64,000 nucleotides of DNA. It comes from Pegea sp. RAD2-039. Its lineage: Eukaryota; Chordata; Thaliacea; Salpida; Salpidae. This document shows positions 10,308-56,972 of this stretch, piece after piece. The stretch covers positions 62,001 to 126,000 of the forward strand of contig JAQGEQ010000040.1 of assembly GCA_034620365.1 (NCBI GenBank), written 5' to 3'. A program made the position numbers and the translations under genes. The first letter of the stretch is position 1. Each line of letters opens with the position of its first letter. The notes under the pieces were generated by a model. It was not told where the DNA came from. It ran no database searches and saw only the letters and a list, made by a program, of their open reading frames with translations.

Positions 10308-10309
10308 TC

Positions 10310-17168: not shown

Positions 17169-17169
17169 T

Positions 17170-33690: not shown

Positions 33691-34372
33691 ATTTAATTAT
33701 CACTTAAAGCAAACGTTAAATGATAGCTACAAGTTTGCCAAACAGATTTTTCATATGTCTTTTCTGCTTTAAAAAAATGAGATATCGAAAAATGTAAAGT
33801 TTTGTTAAACAAATTAATTTTACTACATAAACCAACCAAGAAAAAATCAATATTTCAAGATCTTATCAAAGTTTCATTTAATTAGAGAGTTATTGAAAAC
33901 CATGTCAAGAAGTTATTATGATTTGTTTTCTAAAAACATTTCAATTAATCAGCAGCTGATAATGTTAAAGTTTTTCCTTGTCACGTATACTTGTTTTTCC
34001 CAGTACATTGTTTGTTACCTGAAGTGAAAGCTTTAAAGGAAGCAAAACAAACTCGATTGCTAATAATCAGTAAAGAACACGTAGTAGAAGGAAGTAACAA
34101 GCTTTAAAAGCTGGAACTTTTCATTTTATTCAACTACATTTGTAAAGGTATGCAAACAGATGATTACTTTGTGAACTATTCTCGTGATAGTTATTAGCAT
34201 TCTGTCTAATTAATATAAATTTAGTTTGATAGCGAGAAAAAAGTTTAAACCATTAAGTTTAATAATTAATATCATTTTATTAATATCTATAAAACTTTAA
34301 ATCTATTACATAAAACATAAGACACTAACAAACATATCATTTCTCAACAGAGAAAAATTCAAATATCTCAAG

Positions 34373-35109
34373 ATGAACGCCAAAATACTTTTCATGTTTA
34401 TTGCTGTATGCTTTGTTGCTTCTTCAGAGGCTGGTTGGGTTCGTCATTTGTAAGTGATATGACTTTTATATTAGCTACTAAAACTTAATATTTCTTAATA
34501 ATAAAATCAAATGATAATATAATATAAATTAAAACTTATCGAAAGCTTCTTTGTTACAATTTCTATATGATTTTAATTAATTTGTTTAACATGATGCTTT
34601 TTGCAGTGTCCGTCATGCATGGAAAGGAGTCAAACATTCAGCTCTTCATACTGCTGTTCACTACCTTGGAGATGAACAGGTAGATTGAAAATAGTTTGAA
34701 AATTTTGCAAATATCAAAATTTATTTATAGGGATATGATCACGATCAATATGAAAAGACATTGGTGTCATTGTTGAAAGAATTAAGTGATCAAGTTGGAG
34801 AAACAGATGCTCGTATGTTAGTTACTGATATGGCTCGTTATGTTGAAGCTACAAACTCAGGTTTGAATGAATTGTTGATAAACTGAATTTTTGAAGAATT
34901 ATTATAAAGTAAAAGCAAACTTGTTTCCAATTTTTGGTTTTAATGTAATTTCAAAAGCTTTTCATTTATACCATAAGTGACATCTATTATATTTCTAAAA
35001 ATATTATAATGAGCAAATATTTGACTTTAAATTAAAACTTATAGAATCGATGAAAGACTCTAACATAGATGAAGGTCTTCTTCAACTTGACACTGATCTT
35101 TCCAACTAA
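34373..35109 (+). CDS. Secreted histidine-rich amphipathic peptide precursor, gene A (antimicrobial-like)
   Basis: Four exons (34373-34449, 34607-34679, 34731-34860, 35045-35109), GT-AG borders, 114 residues. Residues 1-20 form a signal peptide ending S-S-E-A. A predicted mature peptide follows from G21-W22: about 27 residues, no Cys, five His, several Arg/Lys, hydrophobic residues at 3-4 spacing as in an amphipathic helix, ending in L-G before D-E (a Gly that could give amidation). The remaining ~67 residues are acidic, as in precursors that neutralise a cationic peptide. This layout is known from amphipathic antimicrobial peptides of tunicates, fish and arthropods; I cannot name a family. 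It faces the CBM14 gene tail to tail. A membrane-active or antimicrobial role is inferred from composition. Confidence 0.85.
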
Positions 35110-35238
35110 TCAAAGTGAAACGATCTCTGGAAGACTTGAAAAATATTGACTAACAAACTTTATTTTCTTAAATCTTATTATTATCATTTAAACTGAGCTT
35201 TATTTTTATGTTGTAATAACAGAAAAGTAATTTGCACA

Positions 35239-35244
35239 AATAAA
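35239..35244 (+). terminator. Poly(A) signal, peptide gene A
   Basis: AATAAA 130 bp after the stop; the same hexamer in the same context occurs in copies B and C. Confidence 0.7.
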
Positions 35245-35259
35245 ATATTATAGTAAAAA

Positions 35260-36530
35260 GCAAACTGAATTTTTCTTGGTTTAATAACTTCTTTCATTGG
35301 GTGTCAGTTTTAAAATCAGCACAATTATTTTTCTAAATCTTTCAAAACCAAGCAACCTTGTCTACCTAATGATGAAGACCTTCGACTCAAATGATCCGTA
35401 GTTATCTAAAATTCTTATTAAATTATATGTGCGTCCAATTCTTTAATGCATTGTCAGTGCATAAGGAAATATCAAGTTGGTAATAGAAAAACTTTGAATT
35501 TGTTCAGGCAGCATTTACGAGGTTAATATGCAGGAAACAATATTAAATATGATAGTTATAAACATCGAATCACTTTCTTAATTTAGGATAGTTTGGAGGT
35601 TCAATGAACTAAATATGATTTAATTCTCATCTTTGAAAATTATCCACAATTTAGTTCGCTTTAAGTTTGATGATTTCGTTTCTATTAGTCTTTCCCTCAA
35701 GTTATATCAATTCAGACAACACACATTACACCTTGATAAAACCATATAACCTCGTACATTAAGCAAGGCAAATTACTTTCTCATACTGCACAATTAGAAG
35801 ACTAGTAGCAGTAGATGATATCAGTGTGTTTGTGTATGCAGATAATATCAAGTTATTATCTTGCAGACCTGGAAATTTCAAACTGCACTACACACTGTAG
35901 AAAACTGGTCTACGAATTAACAGCTCAGAATCCAGCCCACAAATTTTGAACTTCTAACTTTCTCCTGTAAATCAAGACTGAATGAAAAGTTGACAACAAA
36001 CTAACTTGGTGAAAACGTTCGTTCAACTTAAATTTCTGAATGAGTTTCACTAATCTTCTTATTTTTTATTTATATGGATCACAGCTATTCACCTCAAAAG
36101 TTAATGATAAAAATCACAAATATCTTTAAGTATTAAACACTAAATCAGTTTTTATAAAATCTTTCTGAAAACAAGTCTTTTTGATTAAAACGTGTCTTAA
36201 TACTTTTTTGTTTTAAAAGGTTTGAGATTTTGGTATGATCTTAATAAATCTGAACAATTTCTGATCAAATAAATTACTTGGTGAGTCCATTTTAAATCAT
36301 GATAGATGAAGAATCCAAGGTTTTCATTGACTTATATCGGAAGATTTTATTGTCGGTGCTTATTCTTGTTTATTATGAAGAATGTACAAGACACAGATTT
36401 CTCATTCAGCGGGGTTTTCAATCTAATTTGATTTTAACTTCAGAAGCATTGAAAATAAATAACAAATTGTTTTTGATAATCTTTCTGACATAAAACAAAC
36501 TTTACATTTAGATGCAAGAATTCGTTTTAT
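35260..36530. other. Spacer between peptide gene A and CBM14 gene copy 1
   Basis: Non-coding as far as I can see. A 64-codon open frame (36299-36493, +) is broken by a TAA in the duplicate at about 56.7 kb, so it is not a conserved gene. About 300 bp here (roughly 35641-35940) is missing from the right-hand duplicate but present in the inverted copy. Confidence 0.6.
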
Positions 36531-36535
36531 TTGAA

Positions 36536-36541
36536 ATCAAT
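36536..36541 (-). terminator. Poly(A) signal, CBM14 gene copy 1
   Basis: AATAAA on the minus strand about 60 bp past the stop codon at 36603-36605. Confidence 0.65.
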
Positions 36542-36602
36542 TTATAAGAGAAATATTTGTCAACAATGATTAGAAATCATTTGTAAGAAATTGCAAAATC
36601 AG

Positions 36603-39600
36603 TTAACAAACAACGTTTTCTTCCCAATCACAAAATCCTTTATCAGAATCAAATAATGTTCCCTCAGGACAAGTTCGTGTAAACAAAGTTCCTGAAATTT
36701 TTAAAGTTTACACTTAATGGTTGAACTTTAAATAAAATCGAATATTACTTTTCTTATTTAAAATTCGATAAAAGATTTTAAATTCCTAAAAAATATGATT
36801 TTAAAGATTTGATGTAAAGTAAAAAATCAGTTTAAAAACATTGAATTTGAAAATTAAAATCAACTAAATAATGTTTTGTATGAAAGTGAAATTAGCGATA
36901 AAGTAAATATTCAACCCTTTCAACAACTACAAGGAATTTAATAAAGTTTGATAAACAACAACTAACCTGCAGCACACTGTTGGAATGAATCACATTTGTT
37001 TGGTACTTTTATTGGGTCAGTACTCTTTGGTCTACCAGTAGAATCAACACACATTGTATCTACAACATAAAGTCGTTGTAGTTGATCATTGTCAAAAGTG
37101 ATCAAACTATTTCAACTAACCAAAGAAGTAAACAGCACGAGTGTTTGTACAACATCCGGGAACGTTATAAGGCCAATCACAACTTTTCAAAACTGGGTTG
37201 AACACAAGACCAGATGGACATGACATGGTATATAAAATACCTGATAAAATAAAATTACCAAATTTCCAGGCAAAAGTATTGAAAGAACAAATGAAACTTA
37301 CCTGCTCCACATTGATAGAAATGTTCACAATCACCTCGTTTCTCAAATGGTTCAGTACTGATTGGTTTTCCATTTCTGTCTACGCATGGTCCATCTGAAA
37401 AGTAAACGTAAAGAGATAATTAATTGTTTAACAGGAAAAATATCAACAATCATAATTACATTTTAGTTTCATGTAACTAACATTTATTGTTACAACAGCT
37501 TTTATAAAGTACTTGAAAAAAAATTTCTTTAGTATATATTTATATTCTTGTATTTGACTTGAATATAACAAGTATAACAATATTTGAATATCTAATTGTA
37601 GGATTGTAATTGTAGCTAAAATTATTTTTGGGTTAAAATAATTTTAAATAACAGACAAATCTTCGGAAACATTATTTAACTAACTTAAATTATTTTTTGA
37701 AACTTTAAAAACGGTTAACTGTTAATTCAAATTTACCTGGTTGACGGTTACATTCTTTGCCAACATATTCACAACCACAAACTTCAAAAGCACATTGACA
37801 TTCATTTGTATCAGGATTAAAAGCTTGACCGTTTGGACAAGGAAAAGCCACCAAGTCACCTGATTAATATAAATTTATTTTGTCAAAGTGTCTTAATATT
37901 CATCTTATAGATGAGTTGCAAATCAACCTATTAGTGCTAAAACCTACTCACCACAAGCACATTGGTAGAAATGCGTGCAGTTGTTTGGAATAGGGAAAGG
38001 ACCTGAATTGATTGGTCGCCCACAATCATCTTGACAATCAATATCTGAACAATGAAAAGTAGATTATTTGATTGAAGTTTTTGAAGAAAATATTAAGTTT
38101 TTTAAAAGGTTTACTGACGGCAACCAGGGTTTGGTGTGACATAACACCCAGGAACATTAAATGGATCATCACAAAGACCAATTTCAGGATTAAAAGCTTG
38201 TCCTTCAGGACATGACTCTGTAATCAGTTTTCCTAGAAGTCAACAAAAAAATGATTTAGATATTCAGTTGTATGATAGAATTATTTATTAGTTTACCAGC
38301 GCAGCAAATTGTATAGTGTTCGCAATCTCCAGTTCCTTGTGGTCCTCTACTGATTGGTCTTCCACAGTCATCAACACAACAAGGATCTACAAAGTCACAT
38401 CATGAATTTAGCAAAAAGAGATTGAAAAACGTGAAAATATTTGATGAAAGTTTATTAATGTTTTACCGTATTGAGGTGGACATTCATAACAACCAGGAAC
38501 ATTATAAGCATGATCACAATGTCCTGTTTCAGGATTGAATGCAAGACCATCACCACATTCACTTATGATAAGTTTTCCTGCAAATAAGTATTTTTCTAAA
38601 CAAAATTAACTTTGAGCTTCAATTAACCTCCACAGCATGTTTTAAAATATTTACAGTCACCAGGAATTGCTTGTGGATCTCCACTAATTGGTCTACCACA
38701 TTCATCAACACAGCAAGGATCTTTTAAACAAATTTATTTGATTTGAAATACTTTTGTAATTACTCAATCTATGTTTACCATAATGTCCTGGACAGCTTGG
38801 TGTACAACAACCATCAACATTGTAGTCAAAATCACATAAAGCTGTAATTGGATTGTAAGCTAAGCCATCTCCACACTCCACAACTTTCTTATATCCTTCA
38901 AAGCAAAAATAATGTTTCAGTAAATTTCACAAATAAATATAATTAATTTCGATAAAATCGTTTAAATTTTAAGCTTATGTATCTCATTTACCTCCACAAC
39001 ATTCAATGTAAAAGCTACAATTTCCTTTGATTGGATATCTTCCAGATGGAATAGGATTACCGCAGTCATCAAGACATTCTGGATCTAATGTAAAAATTGA
39101 TAAGTTCGTTCACTTGATTTCAAGTAGTAAAATAACTCACCATAACATGGTATATCACAACTGTCATCATAACATCCTTCAACGTAATGAGCAGGAACAC
39201 ACACCAGAGTATCAGGATTGAAAGCATAACCTTTTGGACATTCTTTTTCAATCAATTCACCTGGAAATGTTAGAAAATCAATATTTTTGTAATTTTAAAA
39301 TACTTTATTTAGTCACAGAAAGATTATTTACCACAAGTACAGATATAATACGAGCAGCTGTCAGGTTTAGGAAATGGGCCAGTTGAAATTGGTTTTCCAC
39401 ATTCAGTGTGACACGGGTCTGTTTCAAATAAAGAATTGGTTTATTTTAGCTAGTCATAATTTGGATAATTTGTAAATAAAATAATTAAAAAGTGTATTTT
39501 GTTGATGTTTTTAACATTTGAATAAGTTACTAAAATTAAAAGAATTTATACCACATGTCGGAATGCAACATCCACAGACGTTATAAGAATGATCACATTG

Positions 39601-42600
39601 ATGTGTATCAGGATTATATGAATGATCAGGTTGACAAGACATTCGTTGAAGTTTACCTGTGGAAACAACAAAATGATTTTAATATTAATATTTCAAAACA
39701 AAAGACATTATGATTTCATTATTTCATAGAAATATATTTAAATGTTTTCGGCAAATGTCTCACCGCATGAGCATTGAAGATAGTCATTGCAATCTCCAGG
39801 AATAGGGAAAGTGATGTTGCTGAGAGGTCTTCCACAATCATCAACACATTCTGGGTCTGAAAATCCAAAAATAAGATTATATTTCTTATAAACTGAGATG
39901 AGTACTTTCAATTTGAAATATTCATTTATTACAAAGATTAAACAATAAAAGTAATTAACCGTAGCATCCACAATGTCCTCCGCAGGTAGGATAACATCCA
40001 GGAACTTCCCACATTGGTACACATTGACCTTGTTCTGGACTGAAAGCAAAGTCAGGATTACATGCCCTGATGACTAATTCTCCTAAAGATAAAAAGTCAA
40101 TTTATTTCTAGAATTTTCATTTTCTTAAGAACTTAATCAACAAAACGTAACCTTGTATACATTGCTGATAATGAGTGCAATTGTCCTCAAGTGGGAATGG
40201 ATCACCACAAAGTGGTTCTCCGTTAGATCCATGACAGATATCTAATAAAGGATACAGTTTGAAATCTGATAAAACAATCTCATTTCTTTCTACTTACCAA
40301 TTGGTCCACATCCACAACCTGGAACAGTCCAGTCAAAGTCACATGTACCAGTCTCAGGGTTAAAAGTTAAGCCATCAGGGCAACATTCTGTTCTCAAATG
40401 TCCTGTTGATACATCCTGTTTAATCATTTCATACTTTTTGAAAATTTACTTTTATATAGAATTCTTTTTAATATTTACTTAAACATCAAAGAAGTTTTAC
40501 TAACCACATGAACATTGATAGAAGCAATTACAATCTCCTTGTATTGGGAATGGTTTTGTGCTTATTGGTTGACCATATCTATCACAGCATGGGCCGTCTG
40601 AAAATTGTAGAAATTATCAAGAGAAATTAAGAAATAATCAAATATACGAAACATACCACAAGCATTTCCTCCACATTTAGGAACTGAGCTTAAAACTCCT
40701 AAAAATATAGAAATTATTTGTTAAAATTCAATAAAAGCCTCTTCAAAACATTTTCAACCCACCAGCACCACATTGAAAATACTGTCCAAGTTCTTCAAAT
40801 GGATCTGTGCTTTTTGGTCGGCCATCTGATTCTACACATTTTGGATCTAGAAAACGACAAGCAAGTTATTCAGAGATTTATACAATTAATTGATAAGTAT
40901 TCTGTTGTAGATAGCTAATGTTATAACTATTAATAATTAGATAGCTTTTCTAACAGATCAATACACCTATCAAGTTTTCAAAAAGAACATTGAAACAAAT
41001 TGAAACAAAGAAATATTTTAAGAAAAAGTCTGTTTACACTGAAGCATTAAACATTTAAATTACAAAAATCAAATTAACTTAAAGTTTAATTAGTTAAAGA
41101 AAATTATCGAGTTCTTATCGACTACGAGCTTTATGAAAGCTGAATCATATAACTAATTGTAATTACTTGATCGACAATGTGTTGGGTCATAGCATCCAGG
41201 TACGTTGTATGGCCAATCACAAACTCTCAATTGTGGATTGAAAACTGTTCCTTGAGCGCAAGGCATTGTGTAAAGAATTCCTAAATTTTATTGAATATTC
41301 TCATTCATCATATTTAACTTTGTTATGTTTGAACAAACCTGCCCCACATTGATAGAAATGGGTACAATCGCCTGGCTTCTCAAATGGTCCAGTGCTCAAA
41401 GGTCTTCCATTAGAATCGTGGCATTGATCTTGATAGCAAAACAAAAGGGTTGAAATTTAATCAGTTGAAATGACAAAGAATCAATTATTTTATCTTTTTT
41501 AATCTATTTTGCTTGAAAGGGAAGTAACGTTATCGAAAAAACTATCCGAAAAGTCAATAAAACTTGTTTTGATCTTGAAAGCTCGCAGGAAAGCTCACCT
41601 GGTGGTGCATGGCATCCTCCATTGCATCCACATCCTGGTACTAAGTAGTCAGGTACACAGTGTCCACAGTCAGGATCAAAAGCTTGACCATTTGGACATT
41701 TAAATTCCAACAATTTTCCTTAGAAGTTGAAAATTGTCATCAACTTTTGTCTTTTATGATAACAACATTTTGTAAAATCTTATTTGTAACAAATTTAAAC
41801 AGCAATTTAATTTGCTTGTTTCAACTTACCATTACAACATTGATAGTAAGTACAACAGTCTGATGGTTCATCAAATGGTTCTTTGTCAATTGGTTCACCA
41901 TTGCATCCAACACATTCATCATCTTAATATAATTCAACCAAATAATTAAACCAGTTTTGCTAATTGACAGTTTTAAAAAGCAAATTTTATTTTAAAATTA
42001 TATTTAATAACAACAAACTCAGTTACCGTAAGGTGATTCACAAATGTTTCCATTATCACATCCACATCCACATCCTGGAACTCTCCAAGAATCAACACAA
42101 CATTCATATTCAGGACTGAATGATTCTCCTTCTTTGCATCTCATCACTTCCAAGTACCCTGTATTTTTCGAAAAATTACTTATAGTTCAGTTGAAATAGT
42201 TTTGCTTTTAGTTTTTTGTACAACCTTGTCAATTTTTTGTTTCAGAAAAGAAACAAAAGCAATGTTAGATAGTTCATGTTAAATTTTGTAGAAATTAAGA
42301 TTTTCTTTGTAAAATGCAATGATTAAAAATAGTTAAAAAATCAGCTATTTGTAACATCAAACTTTATTTATTTGAAGTTTTAAATCTTTTACAATTCATA
42401 GAAAGCTTTTACTGAATAAAAATCTGATTTTTAAAAGTAGTTATCTAACCATTAACACATTGGTAGTACAAGTTGCAATCTCCAGGCTTTTCAAAAGGTC
42501 CTTCACAAGTTGGGTTTCCATAGCAGTCTACACATTCTGGATCTTGTATAACAACAGATTTAGATTTGAATTTCCACTTGATAAAATTATTTCAATCATC

Positions 42601-45600
42601 TAACTAACCAAAGTGTGGTTCTTCAACATCACATCCACAATCTGGTACATTATTAGGGCAATCACACAATCCAGTGTGTGGATTAAATACAGTTCCATCA
42701 GGACAGCATATCTCCTGAACATTTCCTGTGAAAAATTTTATTTTGATAATCAATCTCTCAAGGAGAATTTTTTGCTCAATATGTTTGCTGCACTTTATTT
42801 TATGCATCTTTAATAACATTTGAAAATTAATCTTTATCAGAACTTTGAAAATTGATTCTTATCAGAACTTATGTGATAAAAAGTAAATTATAATTAGCGT
42901 GAAACTGAAACCTACCTGAATTACATCTTTGGTAGTGAGTACAATTTCCGCTAATTGCAAAAGGTCCAGTTGTTCTTGGAATACCATTGGCGAGCGTACA
43001 AGGTCCTTTAAATAATATTCAAATTTTTTATCGAGTAAATACAAGCTTTCTTCTATTATTCATAAGAATCAGTCCCATATCTCAACATGAAGATTATTTA
43101 TCTTCTTTTAATCAATAAACTTATTTCACACCATGATGGTTTTCACCACATCCGGGAACATTGTAAGGCCAATCACAATGTCCAATGGCTGGATTGAAAG
43201 CATATCCAGGAGGACATTCAGAAGTTTTCAAGATTCCTGGTAAAATCAAGATATAAAATCTAATAAATAATTAGGTTACAACTAATTGTAATTACCAGCA
43301 GTGCATTGGTAGAAATGGCTACAATCTCCGGGTTTCTCAAATGGACCAGTACTGATAGGTCGTCCATTAGCATCATGACATTGATCTAAAGGTAATCAAA
43401 TATTGAGTCAAAATTGTTTTTTTATTTATTGAAGTACAAAGGAAGTTTTTTGATATTTTTTCTGATAAAATCTTCAAAACCCAGAAGTGCTAATTACCTC
43501 TGCATCCAGGATCTTGACCTCCGCAACCAGGGACATTGTAGGGCCAGTCACAGATTCCTATGAGAGGGTTGAAAGCAGTTCCAGGTGCACAGGGCATTGT
43601 ATATAAGATTCCTTAAACATTATTAAAAATAGCTTTCAGTTACTATTTTGTTTAATCAAAAATCTTCTCAAATTAAAACTTTACTGAATTCTGCAATTGA
43701 GTTTCATTCGTATATAAAATTTTGATGACTCGTTTCAGCATAAGATATTTATTTTATTTATGAAAAATATTTGGTGTAATTACAATATATTTGAAAATTT
43801 AAACTTTCTCTTAGTTATTCGATAGACCCACCTGCCGCACATTGGTAGAAGTGAGTGCAATCTCCGGGTTTCTCAAATGGATCACCACTAATAGGATAAC
43901 CATTTTGTCCCAAACAACGATCTTCAAGTTACAAAAGATCAATTTTCAATAGAAGTTACAAACTTTATAATTCTAAATATTTTATTATGATTAGATCATC
44001 TCTATTAAACGTATATAGATGTCAATTCATACAATTAGTTACAAGCATTTTTTAAACACAAGTTTGTTAAGTAAAAATCTTTTACTCATTAAAAATTACC
44101 TTTAGTTCGTATCAATAGAAATTATAAAACATAACTAGTAATAAAATTTATAATAACTAACTTAATAAATAAACATTTCCTTATTGTTTATATATATATT
44201 TTTAATTAATCAATTATTTAACAAATTGTATGAAATCAAAAATTTTAATATTAAATGTTTTTAATTACAATCATTATTAATTTTAGTTTATAAATAACAT
44301 TTTTCATTAAATATATAGCAACAAAATGAAAATATTAGATCCATATTTGACCATTCATCTTATAAAGCTAGATATAGAGTATAATGAATTAAGTAAAATT
44401 TGCAATACTTACTGTTGGTTTTTGATTTTGAGTAACAATTTCCACATCCGGGAACATTGTAAGGCCAGTCACAGACTCCAAGAGCTGGATTAAAAGCAGT
44501 TCCAGGTGCACAAGGCATTGTGTACAGGATTCCTGAAACATTTTATCGTTAAACGTTTTCTATTTAAACAGTCATGAAAAATATTCAATTTATATTTTCT
44601 TTAGGAAATATAATGAACAAAAAGTATATTAAAAATGGAGAACATACCTGCTCCACATTGATAGAAATGGGTGCAGTCTCCAGGCTTCTCAAAAGGTGCT
44701 GTACTCAAAGGTCTTCCATAATGATCATGACATACATCTGTATAGATTTATTTATAAATTGAATATTTTTCAATAATTTAAAGTTATCTTAATTCACAAT
44801 CAGCATATAAATCTAAAGAGTAAATATATAATTTACTTTTAAAGGTAAGATTATTTTTGAAACAAACTGACATGTCATAATGAAAAAATAAATTTCTTTC
44901 AATTAACTTCTAGCTGATCTTACCTTTTTCTACACCAGTACAATTATCTCCTGCACCACAACCTACAACATTTTCTGGGCAATCACAGGCAGCAGTTTCA
45001 GGATTGAAAACTAATTCATCAGGACATTCACCAATCACAAGCTCTCCTATAAAAACAGAACAAAAAATTCAAGTTTCTAATTAAGTGGATTGTTTAGATT
45101 TAACTGACCTGCTGTACATTGCTTATAATGTTTACAATCACCAGGAATTGCTTCTGGACATGAACTAATTGGTCTTCCGTTTGAGTCTTGACATTCTCTA
45201 TCTATTTATTCAGGCGTAAAGATAAATGATTAACATCACATAGATAAGTAGTGCTTATGTAAATACAGAATAAAATAATTCATTATTATTTAAAAAACAA
45301 CCAGAGATAATTCAATCATTATAGTAAGTTATCAATTTAAACAAAGACCATTTTGTGTTTTAAGTATTATTTTATAAAACATGTTTACTGTTTTTACAAC
45401 TTTAATTTAGAATTTTTAACAAATAAATCTTTGATTTGTTAATGTATATTTTATAATCGAAGATGCCATTTACCATGAGAGCATCCACAATCTCCTCCAC
45501 AACCAGGAACATTATAGGGCCAGTCACAGACTCCTAAAGCTGGATTGAAAACTGTTCCAGAGGCACATGACATTGTGTATAAAGTACCTTAAGAATATTA

Positions 45601-47012
45601 TTTATTTTTAGTTGTAAATTTGGGAAAAAATTTGTCAACGTACCACATCCACATTGATAGAAATGTTCGCAGTCTCCAGGTTTCTCAAATGGTGGTCCAC
45701 TGATTGGGTTTCCATTGTGGTCAGAGCATTGGTGATCTGAAACCAAATCTTATTTAAAATCAATAACAAAATAAAAAAAGCTTCAACTAACGGTTTAAAA
45801 TTATTTTGATGAAGTTGAAAATTATTAAAAATTAAAACCACTGATATCAATCATTCTCATAAAAGATTCTTTTAGATTTACCACATGGAGGTTTGTTTCC
45901 ACCGTGACCACCTCCACTGCCACCTCCACTGCTTCCTCCGCTGCTTCCTCCACCACATCCAGGGACATTGTAAGGCCAATCACAGACTCCAAGAGCTGGA
46001 TTGAAAGCAGTTCCAGGTGCACAAGGCATTGTGTACAAGATTCCTGAAATAATTTTTATTTCAGAATCACACAATAAATTTCAAATTGCTAATTTTGTAA
46101 GATTATTTTTAATACAAAAAGAAGAAAATTGTTTTCAAATTCAATAAAAATTGGTTACAATTATATAGAAATAAATTTAGTTAAATTTTATAAAACTAGA
46201 TTTTAAGTAATTGATTACTTTAATTATTATTTTGTCACAACTCAATATATTTCTAAAACAATTCTAATTAAGCTAATAATTATTATTTTTACCTGCGCCA
46301 CATTGGTAAAAATTAAAACAATCTCCTGGTTTTTCGAATGGTCCTGTACTAACAGGCTCACCGTGTGATCCTCTACATGAAGGAACTGCAAGGTTTGAAA
46401 CAAATTATATAAATGAAATTCAAATAGACGAAATACTATCTTGTAAATTGTTGTAGATATATATGAAAACTTTACCTGATCTAGTCGATCTTTTCACTTC
46501 TTGTTCCTCTTTCTAAAAGTATAAAATGTTTTTTCATTTCGTATTTATTGAAATAAAAAAATAAAAGTAGTTTATGAACACTTTTTCAATGAATCAAAAG
46601 TATTATTAGAAATAAGTTTTTGCTGTTTTCAAATTTTTATTTTTTGAAATAATTCTGAATCAGTTTTATCTTAAATTGTAAAAACTCACTTCTACCAATC
46701 ACAATAAAATAATAAAGTATTATTAGTAGCTTGAAATAATTTAATTTTTTTATAGTAGATCATAAAAACATTGAATGATTATTATTATTGCAATAATAGA
46801 AGAAATATTTTTATGATAATTACTTATAAGAGATACAAATTGTAGGCATAAAGTCTTAAGTAGCTTAGGGTAGGCTAAAATAAATTCTATCTATCTACAA
46901 GTTAAACATCAGGTTGATTAAAATATTTAAATTATACCTCAATAATAAAAGATTGAACAACGAAAATGTTGATCAGCAGAAGAGCAAAAAGCACTGTTTT
47001 GTTGGATAACAT
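36603..47012 (-). CDS. Giant secreted protein of 21 tandem CBM14 chitin-binding modules, copy 1 (complete)
   Basis: The ATG at 47012 starts a signal peptide (exon 46938-47012), followed by a short charged exon (46476-46512). Then come 21 CBM14 (peritrophin-A type) modules, each split over two exons. The front exon carries the GRP..., PGDC and FYQC part (e.g. 45643-45737). The back exon carries CxPGxxFNPxxxxCDWPxNVPGC (e.g. 45944-46045 and onward). The last exon ends ...[12 protein letters not shown] at 36603. That makes 44 exons and roughly 1500 residues, with every intron I checked in phase 1. Each module should bind chitin in a peritrophic matrix or cuticle. Module 1 ends in a Gly/Ser linker; module 11 has a 14-codon back exon (40657-40698) lacking the C-P-x-G and F-N-P core. 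Exon pattern and phase make the model strong; single borders may be off by a few bases. A near-identical partial copy starts at 56973. Confidence 0.87.
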
Positions 47013-47083
47013 CTTAAAATCTTACCAGAACACTATCAAGTAATTCTAATACGATTAGTGAAGATAGTGATACTGGTATGGTG

Positions 47084-47091
47084 TATATATA
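47084..47091 (-). promoter_or_regulatory. TATA box of CBM14 gene copy 1
   Basis: TATATATA within GCTATATATACACC on the minus strand, about 72 bp upstream of the ATG. That places a start site near 47055-47060 and leaves a ~45-nt leader. It is the clearest TATA element in the window. Confidence 0.6.
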
Positions 47092-47099
47092 GCTTTCAT

Positions 47100-47794
47100 T
47101 GAAGCCACAAACAAATTTTCAATAATTTTAAATCACATAATAAACCTATATCCGATTAGATGACAATGTAAATACAAATGTAATCATATTAGCCATAAAT
47201 TATATTTTTGAGTTGTTAGTTAACTCTTATATAATTGTTTAAAAACTATAAATCTTTCTATTGTAGCTTCAATTTTTTGTATCACTTCTTATCATTAATT
47301 TTAGTAAATGATTTATCTTCAATTCATATTAAATTTGTTTTTTGTCAATAACCAACCAATCATAATATGAAATAAATTCAAAGATGTTCGGTTACATAAT
47401 CTAAATCGTTTAATCAAATTCACCTGATTTTAATTTGAGCATTTTCTAGTTTGTTTCAGATGATTTATTTACTTTTTAAATTTTTACATTGTAGTTCGAT
47501 TAAGTACAAATAATAATCAATGTAAATGCAAAATAAGAGCAAGTAAGTTTAGTTGTATAAATCTTTAATGTTTAAACTTTAATACCATTAAATTGTCACC
47601 AACTTGTTATTGGCTGATTCAATAATTTATGCAAAGTTCTTGCTAACAACTTCTAATTTATGAGTTGATTATTTATATGAAGTAAAAATATTCAATTTTA
47701 AATAATATTAGGTTAACGAAGGTTATTCATTTAAAAAATCGTTTTATGAATTTACTGGAAATGTACTAACATTATGAACAGGAGATTGGTTTCA
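47100..47794. other. Upstream region of CBM14 gene copy 1
   Basis: No gene seen. Tissue-specific control elements of the CBM14 gene would be expected here, but I recognise none. Confidence 0.4.
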
Positions 47795-48665
47795 AATGAT
47801 ACTGATATATAACCGAAACATTAATTTAAAAATATATTTTAAAATTAATTTGAAGGTGTGTATAAAACTAAAAACTTAATTGTTAATACCAAATTCGCGA
47901 CATGAAACTCAGTAAAGTTGTTGTATTAAAGATTTTAGTACTATATGTTCCTATCAAACTATTGATATCTGATGAGAGTGAATGAATTGAAAGTAATTAA
48001 TTCTTATGAGTTTCACTTTGGGTAAACTTATTATATTACAATCAACCTAGTTTTGGTCAACTTCAACTAAAGGTAAAATTATCAAACAAAAATTAACTAT
48101 TTGATTACTGCTGTAAATGAAATTTTGTCAGATTGTATTCAACTTCTACTAATTCTAAATTGTTGTATATTTCAATTGGAGTATACCCACAATAAACTAT
48201 TTTTATTGCAATTCAATAAACAACATTTTAATTTGTAATATTCTCAATTCAAACTATAAAATACATTGTAACAAATTTGTTTCAGAGTTTCAATTTACTT
48301 GCAAGTTTCTTATCTGATTATTCATAGTTATTTCGTTTCAAAGGAAATTTGTTCAATAATAAAAATCTGTGCTTACAACTAGAAAGTTTATTAATATTCA
48401 TTTTAACTAAAATTTGGATAAGAAGACATCAGATCACCCAGACAAAAAGTTCTTCTAGATTTTTCAAAAAATTAGGAAGTTAAAGTCAGCTTTCATGAAT
48501 CGAGTTTACGTAAAGAAACTTTTTGCCCGATATTTGTTCAACTTAATTTCAAATGTTTTACAAGTTGCATTTAGCAAAACAAACAATATTTTTGCACGTG
48601 GTTAAGCAAATATCAGAATGTTTCGCTTTTCGTAAAACAAACTAAGTTATTTGCTTAAAAGTGAT
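47795..48665. repeat. ~860-bp inverted repeat, right arm
   Basis: Reverse complement of 32835-33690; no reading frame. The arm contains a segment next to the peptide gene's upstream region, here relocated to the CBM14 promoter side. Confidence 0.8.
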
Positions 48666-49302
48666 TAGAAATCAATAAAAGAAATATTTAAAATTTCATC
48701 AAATTTGTAATTGCATAAATGAGAAAAATTAAGTTTATTATTTGTATTAAAAGATGAAATTAATTTAGTTTTATTAAAAAATTATTTTAGTTGTTTAATA
48801 CTTTAAAAGAAAAAATAGAATATTTTTTCAGTGGTTATTGATGTAATTTATTGAAACCAATTGTTTAATTTCAGCTGCAATTTTGATAACTTTGTTTGCA
48901 TAAAAATAATTGCTATCAAATATTTATTTATTTATTACAATAAATGTGAAGGAGGGTGCCTGAAGAGAATACCTCTCTCTAACACCCATTCTCAAATATA
49001 ACATCTATTTAGTCAAAACTGTAGAAAGTAAAAGATGTAACACATGACATTTCAGTAGTCCTCAAAGCATATAACAGTGAACAATTACATGGAATGTTAA
49101 TAATATGAAAAAGAGAAAAAATCATAGTTTAAAAATGACAATGTTGGCAATATTAAAATGGTTCAACTTCTGCTTGAACAACACGAGCGACTTCGACATG
49201 ACAATGTCTGGGTTCTATATGTCCGGAGTTGTATCGTTTTTACAGTTTCTAAAAATATTTCAGAAATTCTACAAAATATTCAAATTAGTGATGACGTCAT
49301 AC

Positions 49303-50885
49303 TTTTCCGAAGATAACAAACGGTGGCGGCTGGTTACCGCTGATGACGTCACGAGTGAATCCACTGGCTTCCTACAAAGTTAGAAATTTATATAAAAAAG
49401 AGGAAATTGAAACTTTACTTTAGATGCTTTCCACTTGTTATAAAGTGAAGCAACTTTTCCTCCAAGAACTTTTGTCAAATCTTTCTTTAATAAAAAAACT
49501 CCATTGAGGACATTTGTGTTTTTACAAATCTTTATTTTTGTACCAGGAGAAATCTCCAAACTTTAAAACATATTAACTTTTATTTTTTAATAAATTTAGT
49601 TCTTTCTTTACCTGAATTGAGGTATTTTTTCATGTTCTATAGCTGAATAAGATTTATTTCCATCGGTAAAATGAATTAGAAGTAATCTTGGAGCAAATTG
49701 AGATGTTTGATTCGATTTTGGAGAAGATATATTTTGAACCTTCATTACTTGAACAACTATGTTTGCTGTTAACTTAAAATAAAACAATTTTTTCAAATAC
49801 TTTAAATCATGCTTTTTTATTTCCAACCTTTCTATTTTTCTCTTTATCTTTCATATCAAAAGAACATCTTTACCAATATTTGCCAAATCAGTCTGAAAAT
49901 AAAATAAATTTTTTAGTTTCCAAATCTGTTTATAAAATTTAGAATTAAAATAAAATATTTTGTCAAAAAAATGTGATATAACATTTAAAATACATTTAAT
50001 GCAAGCTTTTCAATATCATAAAAAGATAACTTCTTTTTCTGGTTTTCTTTTTGCCATTCCTTATTCAGATAATCAAATCCAAAGTCTGATAAATGCCTAT
50101 AAAGCAAAAAATAAAATATCTTAATTGAAAAACCTTTTAAATAAAAAAAAATTAAACTATAATATTATTTGTAATCACTTTATTTATTTCAATAAATGTC
50201 AATTTATAAATTTATTCAATCAATAAATTTATAGAAAAATAGTTTTGTATATTAAAATTTTATAATTATATTTTCATAACTTTGTATTCTTCAGATTATT
50301 ATCAAAAATAAAAATATCATAAATAAAATATATCTCATTTCATTAAGATTAGGTAAATTATATATATATTTATAAAGTAAAAATATTTTACAGTTGCATA
50401 ATTTGTTATCTGCAGCCATAAGTTTAATCAAAAAGATTAAACAAATTAATAAATACTTTATAGAAGTATGAAGAAAAACATTTGAAATAATTTTAATAAA
50501 CCAATGTTTATAAGATATATAAAAACTTGACTTTCTTTTCAAGTTTTGTTTAGAATTATAAAACATAAAAAATACTATTTTCTATGAATAAATATTTTTA
50601 AGATTAGTAAAAGTTTAACTTATATTAAAATAAGTTAAGTTAAAGACTAAAATATCAACAAAATTTATTAGTTTTATGATTCTGTTTATAAAAGAGTAAA
50701 ATATTTTTTATATACTTTTAATTACAATTAGATATAAGTAAGCTATGCAAAAATAATTGAATTTTCTTGTCTAAGTTAGAGGCTAATATATAATAAGACT
50801 TAAATATAGACTGTTTTTGAAATAAATTTGTAATAAAAAAGACTTACCAGTCATTTTTCCTGAAATTATCCTTTAAAGCATCCAT
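49303..50885 (-). pseudogene. TDRD3-like N-terminal gene fragment, apparently frameshifted
   Basis: Exons 50848-50885, 49994-50096, an exon from 49892 down to about 49826, then 49612-49772, 49419-49560, 49303-49371. The protein begins MDALKDNFRKNDWHLSDFGF, matching the TDRD3 start (W-x-L-S-D-x-G). It continues with ALNTDLANIGK and the OB-fold (VVQVMKVQNISSPKSN, APRLLLIHFTDG, PGTKIKICKN, LGGKVASLYNKW) and GNQPPPFVIFGK, which fits the family's PPPFVPFG stretch. In animals TDRD3 partners TOP3B through this OB-fold. Here the third exon must shift frame by one base after GKDVL to rejoin the next exon, and the later UBA and Tudor domains are not found. I read it as a truncated pseudogene; a sequencing error in a partial gene is the alternative. 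Confidence 0.7.
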
Positions 50886-51475
50886 TTCTTCTAAACAGAT
50901 TGGAAAATAAGATTTATAATTTCTGAAAATATACTAACTAGATATAGAACTTAGTAAACTTGCATGTTAGGGAAATAACCTAATTTTCAGTAAAATGGCA
51001 TACAACTTCATATTTCATTATTTGTTCGCAGATAATAAATTTAATACATACAACAATTATTTTTACTTTAAAAAACTTTTCTAACTCAAAATTTCGTTAA
51101 AACTTTGAAAGAATTTCTTTCAATATAAAATTTTTTAACAGTTCCTTGATAAATAAGTGAAAATTAAATATTTGATTTATTTACTATAATTTCTATTTAA
51201 ATAAAGTTTTTAGGTTATAGGATATATTATATTGAAAAAAACTGTTTTTACTAAGTGATTTGTATATTACTTGTGATAGTTTGTTTTATATACGACGAAA
51301 TAAATTTAATCTTTTTTGTTTTGTTACACTAAAAATCTTTCATGAAAGTAAACACTTCGGGAGACCCAAATAAAAGTCGAAAGACTTTACGTTCTATTAC
51401 AAACAAGTTGAAGTCCATTTCTGACCAACGGACTTTATCAAAATAAGCTTGCAATGGCAATCATCAGTTCTTCAA
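50886..51475. other. Intergenic stretch between the TDRD3-like fragment and the palindrome
   Basis: AT-rich. I see no gene or repeat. Confidence 0.4.
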
Positions 51476-52493
51476 AAAATTTGGTCAGGTTTATTAACAT
51501 CATACCAAAATCTCAAACCTTTTAAAACAAAAAAGTATTAAGACACTATATAATCAAAAAGACTTGTTTTCAGAAATATTATATAAAAACTGATTTAGTG
51601 TTTAATACTTAAAGATATTTGTGATTTTTATCATTAACTTTTGAGGTGAATAGCTGCGATCAATTTTAATAAAAAATTAAAAGATTATTGAAACTCATTC
51701 AGAAATTTAAGTTGAACGAACGTTTTCACCAAGTTTGTTTGTTGTCTGCTTTTCTTTCAGTCTTGATTTACAGGAGAAAGTTACAAGTTCAAAATTTGTG
51801 GGCTGGATTCTGAGCTGTTAATTCGTAGACCAGTTTTCTACAGTGTGTAGTGCAGTTTGAAATTTCCAGGTCTACAAGATAATAACTTGATATTATCTGC
51901 ATACACAAACACACTGATATTATCTACTGCTACTAGTCTTCTAATTGTGCAGTATGAGAAAGTAATTTGCCTTGATTAATGTACGAGGTTATATGGTTTT
52001 ATCAAGGTGTAATGTGTGTTGTCTGAATTGATATAACTTGAGGGAAAGACTAATAGAAACGAAATCATCAAACTTAAAGCGAACTAAATTGTGGATAATT
52101 TTCAAAGATGAGAATTAAATCATATTTAGTTCATTGAACCTCTAAACTATCCTAAATTAAGAAAGTGATTCGATGTTTATAACTATCATATTTAATATTG
52201 TTTCCTGCATATTAACCTCGTAAATGTTGCCTGAACAAATTCAAAGTTTTTCTATTACCAACTTGATATTTCCTTATGCACTGACAATGCATTAAAGAAT
52301 TGGACGCACATATAATTTAATAAGATTGATAGATAACTATGGATCATTTGAGTCGAAGGTCTTCATCATTAGGTAGACAAGGTTGCTTGGTTTTGAAAGA
52401 TTTAGAAAAATCATTGTGTTGATTTTCAAACTGACACCCAATGAAAGAAGTTATTAAACCAAGAAAAATTCAGTTTGCTTTTTACTATAATAT

Positions 52494-52499
52494 TTTATT
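52494..52499 (-). terminator. Poly(A) signal, peptide gene B
   Basis: AATAAA on the minus strand, 130 bp past the stop, same position as in genes A and C. Confidence 0.7.
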
Positions 52500-52628
52500 T
52501 GTGCAAATTACTTTTCTGTTATTACAACATAAAAATAAAGCTCAGTTTAAATGATAATAATAAGATTTAAGAAAATAAAGTTTGTTAGTCAATATTTTTC
52601 AAGTCTTCCAGAGATCGTTTCACTTTGA

Positions 52629-53365
52629 TTAGTTGGAAAGATCAGTGTCAAGTTGAAGAAGACCTTCATCTATGTTAGAGTCTTTCATCGATTCTATAAG
52701 TTTTAATTTAAAGTCAAATATTTGCTCATTATAATATTTTTAGAAATATAATAGATGTCACTTATGGTATAAATGAAAAGCTTTTGAAATTACATTAAAA
52801 CCAAAAATTGGAAACAAGTTTGCTTTTACTTTATAATAATTCTTCAAAAATTCAGTTTATCAACAATTCATTCAAACCTGAGTTTGTAGCTTCAACATAA
52901 CGAGCCATATCAGTAACTAACATACGAGCATCTGTTTCTCCAACTTGATCACTTAATTCTTTCAACAATGACACCAATGTCTTTTCATATTGATCGTGAT
53001 CATATCCCTATAAATAAATTTTGATAATTGCAAATTTTTCAAACTATTTTCAATCTACCTGTTCATCTCCAAGGTAGTGAACAGCAGTCTTAAGAGCTGC
53101 ATGTTTGACTCCTTTCCATGCATGATGGACACTGCAAAAAGCATCATGTGAAACAAATTAATTAAATCCATATAGAGATTTTAACAAAGAAGCTTTGGAT
53201 AAGTTTTAATTTATATTATATTATCATTTGATTTTATTATTAAGAAATATTAAGTTTTAGTAGCTAATATAAAAGTCATATCACTTACAAATGACGAACC
53301 CAACCAGCCTCTGAAGAAGCAACAAAGCATACAGCAATAAACATGAAAAGTATTTTGGCGTTCAT
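52629..53365 (-). CDS. Secreted histidine-rich amphipathic peptide precursor, gene B
   Basis: Same four-exon structure as gene A: 53289-53365, 53059-53131, 52878-53007, 52629-52693 (114 residues, intact). Signal peptide and acidic C-terminal part are the same as in gene A. Within the mature peptide it differs from A at position 8 (R to H), 17 (S to A) and 20 (H to K), and matches gene C at these three sites. It keeps Val at position 3 like A. Divergently transcribed from gene C, with 1.68 kb between the two ATGs. Confidence 0.85.
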
Positions 53366-54034
53366 CTTGAGATATTTGAATTTTTCTCTGTTGAGAAATG
53401 ATATGTTGGTTAGTTGCAACGTCTTATGTTTTATGTAATAGATTTAAAGTTTTCTACACATTAATAAAATGATATTAATTATTAAACTAAAAGGTTTAAA
53501 CTTTTTTCTCGCTATCATACTAAATTTATATAAAATAGACAGAAATCTAATAATTATCACGAAAATAGTTCACAAAATAATCATTTGTTTGCATACCTTT
53601 ACAAATGTAGTTGATTAAAATGAAAAGTTCCAGCTTTTAAAGCTTGTTACTTCCTTCTACTACGTGTTCTTTACTGATTATTAGCAATCGAGTTTGTTTT
53701 GCTTCCTTAAAAGCTTTCACTTCAGGTAACAAACAATGTACTGGGAAAAACAAGTATACGTGACAAGGAAGAACTTTAACGTTATCAGCTGCTGATTAAT
53801 TGAAATGTTTTTAGAAAACAAATCATAATAACTTCTTGCCACGGTTTTCAATAACTCTCTAATTAAATGAAACTTTGATAAAATCTTGAAATATTGATTT
53901 TTTCTTGGTTGGTTTATGTAGTAAATTTTAATTTGTTTAACAAAATTTTACATTTTTTGATATCTCATTTTATTAAAGCAGAAAAATATACGAAAAATCT
54001 GTTTGGCAAACTTGTAGCTATCATTTAATGTTTG

Positions 54035-54375
54035 TTTCGAGGCTTAGAAGTCAACATCTTTATGGAAGAAATTGAAATAGAAGAATTGTCTTTTTGACGC
54101 TCGTGAGATTTGATAATGGGCTTCTGTGAATTGATATTTTTGGCTGGAAAGATTGTGTTCACATTTGTATGCAGAGAAAATGTACAAAAGAAAAAGTGGG
54201 ACCAGTAGTTATTTGCCATTTCCGAAAAAAAAAATCTGACAATTATACAGGCTTCTGGAAAATCTCGATATTTGTATTTGAAATTAGTTGGTTGTTCTTT
54301 CTGATTTGGATTAAACACCACTTTTAGAATACACTCAGCTTCTTTTTTAAGGATATTAATTTGTAAGCCTTAAAT
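54035..54375. other. Palindrome centre (341-bp spacer)
   Basis: Unique sequence between the arms, whose edges still pair weakly (GGCTTA against TAAGCC). A 98-codon minus-strand open frame (54025-54321) fills most of it and includes YRDFPEACIIVRFFF. I recognise no family and see no splice sites that would join it to anything. It is the shared upstream region of genes B and C. Confidence 0.6.
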
Positions 54376-55044
54376 CAAACATTAAATGATAGCTACAAGT
54401 TTGCCAAACAAATTTTCGTATATTTTTCTGCTTAAATAAAATGAGATATCAAAAAATGTAAAATTTTGTTAAACAAATTAAAATTTACTACATAAACCAA
54501 CCAAGAAAAAATCAATATTTCAAGATTTTATCAAAGTTTCATTTAATTAGAGAGTTATTGAAAACCGTGGCAAGAAGTTATTATGATTTGTTTTCTAAAA
54601 ACATTTCAATTAATCAGCAGCTGATAATGTTAAAGTTCTTCCTTGTCACGTATACTTGTTTTTCCCAGTACATTGTTTGTTACCTGATGTGAAAGCTTTT
54701 AAGGAAGCAAAACAAACTCGATTGCTAATAATCAGTAAAGAACACGTAGCAGAAGGAAGTAAAAAGCTTTAAAAGCTGGAACTTTTCATTTTAATCAACT
54801 ACATTTGTAAAGGTATGCAAACAAATGATTATTTTGTGAACTATTCTCGTAATAATTATTAGATTTCTGTCTATTTTATATAAATTTAGTATGATAGCGA
54901 GAAAAAAGTTTAAACCTTTTAGTTTAATAATTAATATCATTTTATTAATGTGTAGAAAACTTTAAATCTATTACATAAAAAAATAAGACGTTGCAACTAA
55001 CCAACATATCATTTCTCAACAGAGAAAAATTCAAATATCTCAAG

Positions 55045-55781
55045 ATGAACGCCAAAATACTTTTCATGTTTATTGCTGTATGCTTTGTTGCTTCTTCGGA
55101 GGCTGGTTGGTTTCGTCATTTGTAAGTGATATGACTTTTATATTAGCTACTAAAACTTAATATTTCTTAATAATAAAATCAAATGATAATATAATATAAA
55201 TTAAAACTTATCCAAAGCTTCTTTGTTAAAATCTCTATATGGATTTAATTAATTTGTTTCACATGATGCTTTTTGCAGTGTCCATCATGCATGGAAAGGA
55301 GTCAAACATGCAGCTCTTAAGACTGCTGTTCACTACCTTGGAGATGAACAGGTAGATTGAAAATAGTTTGAAAAATTTGCAATTATCAAAATTTATTTAT
55401 AGGGATATGATCACGATCAATATGAAAAGACATTGGTGTCATTGTTGAAAGAATTAAGTGATCAAGTTGGAGAAACAGATGCTCGTATGTTAGTTACTGA
55501 TATGGCTCGTTATGTTGAAGCTACAAACTCAGGTTTGAATGAATTGTTGATAAACTGAATTTTTGAAGAATTATTATAAAGTCAAAGCAAACTTGTTTCC
55601 AATTTTTGGTTTTAATGTAATTTCAAAAGCTTTTCATTTATACCATAAGTGACATCTATTATATTTCTAAAAATATTATAATGAGCAAATATTTGACTTT
55701 AAATTAAAACTTATAGAATCGATGAAAGACTCTAACATAGATGAAGGTCTTCTTCAACTTGACACTGATCTTTCCAACTAA
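55045..55781 (+). CDS. Secreted histidine-rich amphipathic peptide precursor, gene C
   Basis: Exons 55045-55121, 55279-55351, 55403-55532, 55717-55781; 114 residues, intact. Exons 3 and 4 (acidic part) are base-for-base the same as in gene A. The mature peptide differs from A at four places: 3 (V to F), 8 (R to H), 17 (S to A) and 20 (H to K). The only silent change I see in the first two exons is in the signal peptide (TCA to TCG). It keeps the amphipathic pattern and the terminal L-G before D-E. It lies upstream of, and convergent with, CBM14 gene copy 2, as gene A does with copy 1. Confidence 0.85.
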
Positions 55782-55910
55782 TCGAAGTGAAACGATCTCT
55801 GGAAGACTTGAAAAATATTGACTAACAAACTTTATTTTCTTAAATCTTATTATTATCATTTAAACTGAGCTTTATTTTTATGTTGTAATAACAGAAAAGT
55901 AATTTGCACA

Positions 55911-55916
55911 AATAAA
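55911..55916 (+). terminator. Poly(A) signal, peptide gene C
   Basis: AATAAA 130 bp after the stop, in the same context as in genes A and B. Confidence 0.7.
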
Positions 55917-56905
55917 ATATTATAGTAAAAAGCAAACTGAATTTTTCTTGGTTTAATAACTTCTTCCATTGGGTGTCAGTTTGAAAATCAGAACAATTAT
56001 TTTTCTAAATCTTTCAAAACCAAGCAACCTTGTCTACCTAATGATGAAGACCTTCGACTCAAATGATCCATAGTTATCTATCAATCTTATTAAATTATAT
56101 GTGCGTCCAATTCTTTAATGCATTGTCAGTGCATAAGGAAATATCAAGTTGGTAATAGAAAAACTTTGAATTTGTTCAGGCAACATTTACGAGATTAATA
56201 TGCAGGAAACTTAATATTAAATATGATAGTTATAAACATCGAATCACTTTCTTAATTTAGGATAGTTTAGAGGTTCAATGAACAAAATACGATTTAATTC
56301 TCATCTTTGAAAATTCTGAACTTGTAACTTTCTCCTGTAAATCAAGACTGAAAGAAAAGCAGACAACAAACTAACTTGGTGAAAACGTTCGTTCAACTTA
56401 AATTTCTGAATGAGTTTCAATAATCTTCTTATTTTTTATTTATATGGATCACAGTTACTCACTTCAAATGTTAATGATAAAAATCACAAATATCGTTAAG
56501 TTTTAAATACTAAATCAGTTTTTATATAATATTTCTGAAAACAAGTCTTTTTGATTATATAGTGTCTTAATACTATTTTGTTTTAAAAGGTTTGAGATTT
56601 TGGTATGATGTTAATAAATCTGAACAATTTCTGATCAAATAAATTACTTGGTGAGTCCATTTTTAATCATGATAGATGAAGAATCCAAGGTTTTCATTGA
56701 CTTATATCGAAAGATTTTATTGTCGGTGCTTATTCTTGTTTAATATGAAGAAAGTACAAGACACAGATTTTTCATTCAGCGGGGTTTTCAATCTAATTTG
56801 ATTTTAACTTCAGAAGCATTGAAAATAAATAACAAATTCTTTTTGATAATCTTTCTGACATAAAACAAACTTTACATTTAGATGCAAGAATTCGTTTTAT
56901 TTGAA

Positions 56906-56911
56906 ATCAAT
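56906..56911 (-). terminator. Poly(A) signal, CBM14 gene copy 2
   Basis: AATAAA on the minus strand, the counterpart of 36536-36541. Confidence 0.65.
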
Positions 56912-56972
56912 TTATAAGAGAAATATTTGTCAACAATGATTAGAAATCATTTGTAAGAAATTGCAAAATCAG

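Follow-up and report, generated by a model that had tools for sequence, protein, structure and literature searches.

The window, as the whole stretch of 64,000 nucleotides analysed here is called (Pegea sp. RAD2-039, contig JAQGEQ010000040.1, positions 62,001 to 126,000 of the forward strand), contains three genes, A, B and C, each with four coding exons, GT-AG introns and a 114-residue precursor that consists of a predicted signal peptide, a predicted mature peptide and an acidic remainder. The original prediction, made from the letters alone, had placed these genes and their common exon structure at positions which are confirmed base for base. We consider it rather likely that A, B and C are members of a larger family of secreted peptides, probably antimicrobial, whose active part has repeatedly been changed by selection. 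The features are given below; copies D and E are described further on.

34373 to 35109, plus strand: gene A, four coding exons (34373-34449, 34607-34679, 34731-34860, 35045-35109), GT-AG at the three introns, 114-residue precursor
34373 to 34432, plus strand: predicted signal peptide of gene A, 20 codons, with S-S-E-A at the end (putative cleavage site)
34433 to 34449, plus strand: predicted mature peptide of gene A, first part, end of exon 1
34607 to 34667, plus strand: predicted mature peptide of gene A, second part, in exon 2, with a putative cleavage end ...HYL ahead of Gly-Asp
34668 to 34679, plus strand: GDEQ linker of gene A, predicted processing and amidation site; GD is present in 12/12 A-D copies and 6/6 E copies
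34731 to 34860, plus strand: exon 3 of gene A, acidic module with a predicted helical hairpin, 130 nt in 12/12 A-D copies
35045 to 35109, plus strand: exon 4 of gene A, acidic tail
52629 to 53365, minus strand: gene B, four coding exons (53365-53289, 53131-53059, 53007-52878, 52693-52629)
53305-53289 and 53131-53071, minus strand: predicted mature peptide of gene B
55045 to 55781, plus strand: gene C, four coding exons (55045-55121, 55279-55351, 55403-55532, 55717-55781)
55105-55121 and 55279-55339, plus strand: predicted mature peptide of gene C
52097 to 54062, minus strand: left arm of an inverted repeat, with gene B, 98.4% identical to 54348-56315
54348 to 56315, plus strand: right arm of the inverted repeat, with gene C

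The three genes are located in recent duplications. B and C occupy the two arms of the inverted repeat of about 2 kb (98.4% identity), and the 7.7 kb which follow A and C are 99.6% identical (35941-43630 and 56311-64000, a direct duplication).

The original prediction took the comparison of A and C as the pattern expected of positive selection on a secreted effector. The counts behind it are reproduced: exon 3 differs at 0 of 130 nt and exon 4 at 0 of 65 (195 nt in all), and in the mature segment five base changes give four replacements (V23F, R28H, S37A and H40K), none of the changes being silent. The sole silent coding change between the two genes is at codon 18, in the signal. However, intron 3 is just as identical (1 difference in 184 positions, compared to 8 in 208 for introns 1 and 2), so the identity of exons 3 and 4 alone does not indicate constraint on the protein, and this part of the argument is weak. 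The mature part, set by us as codons 21-46, differs between A and C at 5 of 78 nt, compared to 32 of 935 in non-coding DNA (Fisher p=0.20; p=0.35 against introns 1 and 2 only). Similarly, A and B give p=0.29 against non-coding DNA and p=0.74 against introns 1 and 2. A codon likelihood test of A-C calibrated on non-coding DNA yields an omega of 2.3-2.4, with p between 0.09 and 0.11. The excess in the mature segments of A, B and C alone is suggestive, within chance and not significant. These three copies could also be explained by recent duplication, gene conversion and chance, neutral differences having fallen in the mature part while conversion erased others. Indeed, the region from exon 3 to exon 4, including intron 3, is a single block of low difference, and the p values of 0.20 and, for omega, about 0.1 are in keeping with this explanation.

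A protein search of the 105.7-Mb assembly (387 contigs, the window belonging to contig C189) reveals nine additional copies, D1-D9, on contig C83. D1 and D2 form an inverted pair, D3-D5 are three tandem units of 2470 bp and D6-D9 four units of about 2458 bp. The 12 A-D copies all have intact frames and GT-AG introns, and the two length changes in coding sequence, a 12-nt deletion in exon 2 of D6-D9 and a 3-nt deletion in exon 4 of D1, are both in frame. Introns 1 and 2 of D1 and D2 are 96-97% alike, whereas intron 3 of this pair differs at 43% of its positions and exon 4 at 26%. Exons 1-3 of this pair look as if they had been copied as a cassette; the abrupt change thus indicates that conversion or cassette copying is active in the family, which is a further point in favor of the explanation by duplication and conversion.

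The comparison by region over these further copies gives a clearer picture. In D3-D9 the omega of the mature part is 3.6-6.1 relative to the copies' own non-coding DNA: 6.1 when all non-coding DNA is the reference (p=1.9e-10), 3.6 with introns 1 and 2 (p=1.6e-6). Both values were obtained with a fixed, conservative topology; the values of 12.9 and 4.7 found on other trees were set aside since the topology misfits the mature part. Omega stays between 3.6 and 6.7 across six gap placements, and equal silent and replacement rates in the mature part are rejected (likelihood ratio test 12.7, p=3.7e-4). Between D3-D5 and D6-D8, the mature part has a mean of 15.7 replacement changes for 52 replacement sites and 0 silent changes for 14 silent sites, the non-coding differences being 8.4 in 205 positions of introns 1 and 2 and 3.7 in 183 of intron 3. 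Single pairs show the same excess: 16/66 in the mature part against 22/938 in non-coding DNA for D5 and D6 (Fisher p=1.4e-10), p=2.6e-10 for D3 and D8, and 6/66 against 12/938 for D8 and D9 (p=6e-4).

The two coding pieces of the mature part are separated by intron 1. When D3-D5 are compared to D6-D9, the exon-1 piece differs at 3-4 of 17 nt (18-24%) and the exon-2 piece at 12-14 of 49 compared nt (24-29%), whereas the intron between them differs at 4-7 of 154 (2.6-4.5%); for D5 and D6 the three counts are 4/17, 12/49 and 7/154. The exon-1 piece by itself gives p values of 0.006-0.063 over the 12 pairs. The excess of replacements is therefore not a contiguous tract of DNA, because a conserved intron separates the two changed pieces. 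This distribution, the absence of silent changes in the 14 silent sites and the recurrence of the pattern in a second subfamily (G, below) all speak against duplication, conversion and chance, which we regard as an unlikely origin of the pattern. The differences in the mature exons might instead have been brought in from divergent donors by ectopic conversion, or have accumulated at a local mutation hot spot. Conversion is likely in this family, where tandem arrays of 2.46-kb units would allow it, but a tract or a hot spot should cover intron 1, which is conserved between the divergent coding pieces. Equal replacement and silent rates are rejected not only in D3-D9 (p=3.7e-4) but also in G (p from 6e-4 to 2e-6 over the G tests), and no donor exon was found in the assembly at E-values up to 10, a weak negative as only the best candidates were scored. 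Ectopic conversion or a hot spot is thus very improbable. The D copies and subfamily G give good support for positive selection on a secreted effector, which A-C alone do not show; the main inference of the original prediction is probably right, for a reason which is absent from the three genes it was drawn from.

When all 12 A-D copies are considered, omega is 2.9 for the mature part (p=4e-9), 0.44 for the signal (p=0.02) and 0.43 for exon 3 with the linker (p=4e-4). Exon 4 has an omega of 2.55 (p=1e-5), which we attribute to D1 and D2, whose 3' ends are old and are not described by the tree of introns 1 and 2.

The exon-3 module is found at 42 loci at least: 12 A-D, six E, nine F, 14 G and one more (L036). 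These counts are lower bounds, and one subfamily matches another weakly (single-genome E-values of about 1e-4 to 0.7). Genes of subfamily E have exons of 77, 97 and 130 nt and the same intron phases as A (2, 0, 1); their mature peptide is predicted to have 29 residues. It hardly varies: in 15 pairs, the proportions of replacement and silent differences are 0.005 and 0, with a single replacement (in L019), while the introns differ by 6.7%. Thus, genes of this plan can also be subject to strong purifying selection. One E copy, L017, lies at the right end of contig C6 and L019 is close to the left end of C44; C6 and C44 may adjoin each other, or the assembly may have been interrupted by the array.

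The 14 G loci have the phases of introns 1 and 2 of A, a constant signal and a near-constant exon 3. Between them lies a variable segment of about 12-15 residues which changes length in frame, is not cationic and in most cases contains cysteine. Its omega, calculated for nine of the 14 copies (L029, whose protein is identical to that of L028, and four copies of contig C10, which form a separate group, were left out), is 9.0 against introns 1 and 2 (p 1e-37) or 2.7 against all non-coding DNA (p 5e-10), and 6.6 and 2.2 without L031. The size of omega depends on the reference because the flanks differ more (0.29 upstream, 0.12 downstream) than introns 1 and 2 (0.12 and 0.05). Silent and replacement rates in the segment are unequal with both references (p 2e-6 and 6e-5).

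Exon 3 of G (L022-L035) has no silent difference among the nine compared copies, while the differences amount to 12% in intron 1 and 5% in intron 2; its silent rate is about zero relative to these introns (p=4e-7). Exon-limited gene conversion or constraint at the nucleotide level would explain this silence, and the data fit both. Among the 12 A-D copies, the silent rate relative to introns 1 and 2 is 0.31 in exon 3 (p=0.018), 0.21 in the mature part (p=0.03) and 0.44 in the signal (p=0.18), so that the depletion in A-D is not special to exon 3, the mature part being equally low. With intron 3 as the reference, exon 3 of A-D has a silent rate of 0.05 (p=2e-13), but for D1 and D2 this reference takes in their old 3' ends. 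Among the F loci, of which eight of nine were retrieved, L020 and L021 share exon 3, with 3-4 differences per pair in 111 compared nt, and blastn of the two gene regions gives no match besides this exon. A near-identical exon 3 behind unrelated first exons suggests exon shuffling or, again, conversion limited to the exon.

The original prediction described the peptide as cationic, His-rich and free of cysteine, with helix-like spacing and a charge that would rise at acid pH. For A-C, the cationic and amphipathic character holds: the predicted charge at pH 7.4 is +5.2, that of the acidic remainder is -12.9, and the helical moment exceeds that of 5000 shuffled sequences (p 0.008-0.018, and below 0.001 for D1-D5). 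The predicted mature peptide of A has 26 residues and a charge that goes from +5.2 at pH 7.4 to +9.3 at pH 5.5. Predicted mature lengths are 26 or 22 residues in A-D. At pH 7.4 the mature charge lies between +4.8 and +5.2 in A-D and is +7.9 in E (calculated for one copy), with remainders of -8 to -18. The other traits apply to A-C and not to the family: histidines number five in A-C, three in D1-D5 and one or two in D6-D9, the large rise of charge at acid pH is therefore limited to A-C, and D6-D9 (4/12 genes) have one cysteine each. The mature peptides of D6-D9 might form disulphide dimers, as is reported for dicynthaurin (PMC2866484).

AlphaFold2 models the exon-3 peptide of A (from seven sequences) as a helical hairpin, with helices 4-22 and 24-42, a mean predicted local distance difference test score (pLDDT) of 92.9 and a predicted template modelling score (pTM) of 0.64. 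Eight representative precursors were compared for charge. A, D3, D9 and E combine N-segments of +4 to +7 with acidic C-parts of -7 to -17, whereas one F and three G precursors have N-segments between -2 and +2 and C-parts between +1 and +3 (for F the count covers the exon-1 piece of the N-segment only). This pairing fits a charge-masking pro-part in A-E.

Styelins have a tryptophan near the N-terminus and a Gly-Asp junction. A-C resemble styelins and botryllin in these two features. Both are ascidian haemocyte peptides made as precursors, from Styela clava and Botryllus schlosseri, respectively, and have a KHK motif in common (PMC9966394), which is absent from the eight distinct mature sequences compared here (seven A-D, one E). 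Their published lengths are 31-32 and 37 residues, compared to 26 or 22 here and 29 in E. In Ciona, the order of the precursor is a signal, a cationic amphipathic helix and an anionic helix, with an acidic residue at the junction, which reads ...AALGDE... in KH.S908.1; styelins and clavanins are cut N-terminal to Asp (PMC7387483). The Ciona precursors are like A-E in the order of the parts and the acidic junction residue, a comparison made by description and not by alignment. Unlike them, A-D have an acidic part with a 130-nt hairpin exon and arrays with measured diversification, and both published signal consensus sequences are, by eye, unlike the signal of A-C.

The clavanins and clavaspirin of Styela clava are His-rich, as are A-C with their five histidines, a content which is not kept in D. 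Published clavanins have 23 residues, whereas A-C have 26 and start with Gly-Trp; no 23-residue, His-rich mature peptide is found among the predictions, which have 22-29 residues (predicted ends) and 1-5 histidines. Published effects of pH are mixed: at pH 5.5, clavanins have a higher potency and styelin D is active on Gram-negative bacteria (PMC2866484), whereas botryllin, which is styelin-like, has a lower activity under acid conditions (PMC9966394). In fish, piscidins have positively selected sites in the mature peptide only (PMC2830478). Piscidins and pleurocidin are like A-C in having a signal, an N-terminal mature helix, a C-terminal pro-part and multi-exon genes (PMC7369796, PMC2830478), but the intron phases of A-D and E genes (2, 0, 1) are not those of piscidins, which are 1 and 2 as deduced from sea-bass exons of 101 and 19 bp, the one fish species compared (PMC7369796). 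A distant link between tunicates and fish has already been proposed, a review describing styelins as homologous to cecropins and pleurocidin (PMC10608444). The precursor plan, from ascidians, and selection limited to the mature part, from fish piscidins, are already known. Among the literature matches listed, none describes selection in an antimicrobial family of tunicates, a weak negative as subscription journals are thinly covered.

A protein search with exon 3 returns two 38-residue records which are 87% identical over 70% of the query, which indicates that close relatives exist in public sequence. The hairpin fold has no match in the PDB at E-values up to 0.001, and the mature peptide of A none at E-values up to 10. 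The best PDB matches of Ciona KH.S908.1 are pleurocidin, at non-significant E-values of 0.81 and 0.93. A resemblance of the acidic part to Pins (5a7d, whole-sequence E-value 7e-4) was rejected, as it is made of weak helical stretches with a best domain E-value of 2.9. The cecropin profile PF00272 has no match in the genome, a weak negative as no positive control matched.

The maturation of the peptides can be proposed as follows. Signal peptidase would cleave after Ser-Ser-Glu-Ala. A cut before Asp, with Gly becoming a C-terminal amide, would then free a peptide of about 26 residues; this step is suggested by the conserved Gly-Asp and by the published processing of styelins and clavanins. Until release, the acidic remainder, which contains the exon-3 hairpin, would offset the charge of the cationic helix, a role that fits the computed charges and the model of the hairpin. 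The freed amphipathic helix may damage microbial membranes. In evolutionary terms, the computations indicate that the family grew by tandem and inverted duplication, that signal and hairpin changed little and that positive selection has pushed the mature segment of A-D to new sequences.

Several observations weigh against an antimicrobial family under selection confined to the mature part. In D3-D9 considered separately, neutral change is not rejected for the signal, for exon 3 with the linker or for exon 4 (omega 0.24-1.40, p 0.06-0.95), and the constancy of the signal, exon 3 and exon 4 rests on the comparisons of the 12 copies, of A-C and of G. The likelihood tests assume a single tree, an assumption broken by gene conversion among the copies, so that their p values are guides. 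The helical moment does not exceed that of shuffled sequences at 0.05 in D6-D9 (p 0.050-0.080) or in E (p 0.24). The 114-residue precursor has no relative among 5.8 billion proteins at E-values up to 1, and precursor A matches no Pfam family, including cecropin and piscidin, at the same threshold. The assignment of the host to tunicates was drawn from one locus. Cellulose synthase is, among animals, a tunicate gene; at this locus, on contig C14, Cellulose_synt scores 31.3 bits, above the Pfam cut-off, but the general family Glyco_trans_2_3 scores higher (62.6 bits), and no GH6 domain match is found. A search with the cellulose-synthase exon returns 24 proteins, the best at 95-96% identity. Antimicrobial activity, cutting, amidation and expression of the A-E peptides are all predicted from sequence. 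Finally, F and G share the signal and the hairpin with A-E, but their N-terminus is not cationic, and an antimicrobial function therefore need not apply to the entire superfamily.

The last point bears on another explanation, in which the diversifying selection acts on peptides of recognition or signalling (allorecognition, gamete recognition, pheromones) rather than on antimicrobials. It would account for the hypervariable, non-cationic segment which the 14 G loci carry between the same kind of signal and hairpin, and for the near-invariance of the strongly cationic E. However, the charge, length, acidic pro-part and Gly-Asp site of A-E match those of reported ascidian antimicrobial precursors (PMC7387483), and recognition or signalling is a doubtful explanation, though a little less so than the two considered above. 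An antimicrobial family changed by selection is thus still preferred for A-E. More tentatively, the 42 or more loci could form a repertoire with constant and variable parts, in which near-constant signal and hairpin exons frame a segment changed by selection; in G, exon-limited conversion or constraint at the nucleotide level would keep these exons alike down to their silent sites. In A-E the segment would be a cationic helix with antimicrobial action. In G it would be neutral and in most cases contain Cys, and the charge of the C-part would be reversed to match.

A mature segment which outpaces its own introns, beside a near-frozen sister subfamily, allows the causes of antimicrobial diversity to be tested directly. 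Since charges are reversed between subfamilies, the role of the pro-part can be tested as well, and the hairpin exon of G, with almost no silent changes, raises the separate, testable question of exon-limited gene conversion.

In the 12 A-D copies, an acceptor-like pyrimidine stretch is present about 20 nt upstream of the ATG. It ends with CTCAACAG in ten copies and with TTAACAG in D1 and D2, and in A-C it lies within 34340-34372, 53366-53400 and 55010-55044. It is possibly the end of an intron in the 5' untranslated region, or a trans-splice site. In the first copy of the 7.7-kb duplication, two minus-strand exon pieces were scanned; one matches CBM_14 (chitin-binding) above the cut-off and the second below it.

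An Rfam scan of the window gives no match. An arthropod or nematode origin of the DNA was considered and rejected: profile searches for the RR cuticle and cuticle-collagen families give no match, a weak result as no positive control matched, nor do those for LEA_4 and COX1. The GC content of the window is 24-32%; the lowest tunicate values are reported in solitary ascidians, molgulids in particular (PMC8704543), which is a faint hint at most. Positions 32824-33694 and 47794-48664 form a pair of 871-bp inverted repeats (98%), parts of which are found on contigs C123, C197, C191, C194 and C112 at 70-91%; this repeat is perhaps a mobile element. On the minus strand, open stretches in 20710-21526 match thrombospondin type 1, with a sub-threshold Adt-1-like match, and perhaps belong to a gene for an ADAMTS-like protease. 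Several direct repeats of about 240-1040 bp, with identities of 72-99%, lie in 2059-21315, such as 9349-10307 and 16210-17167, which are 98.7% identical.

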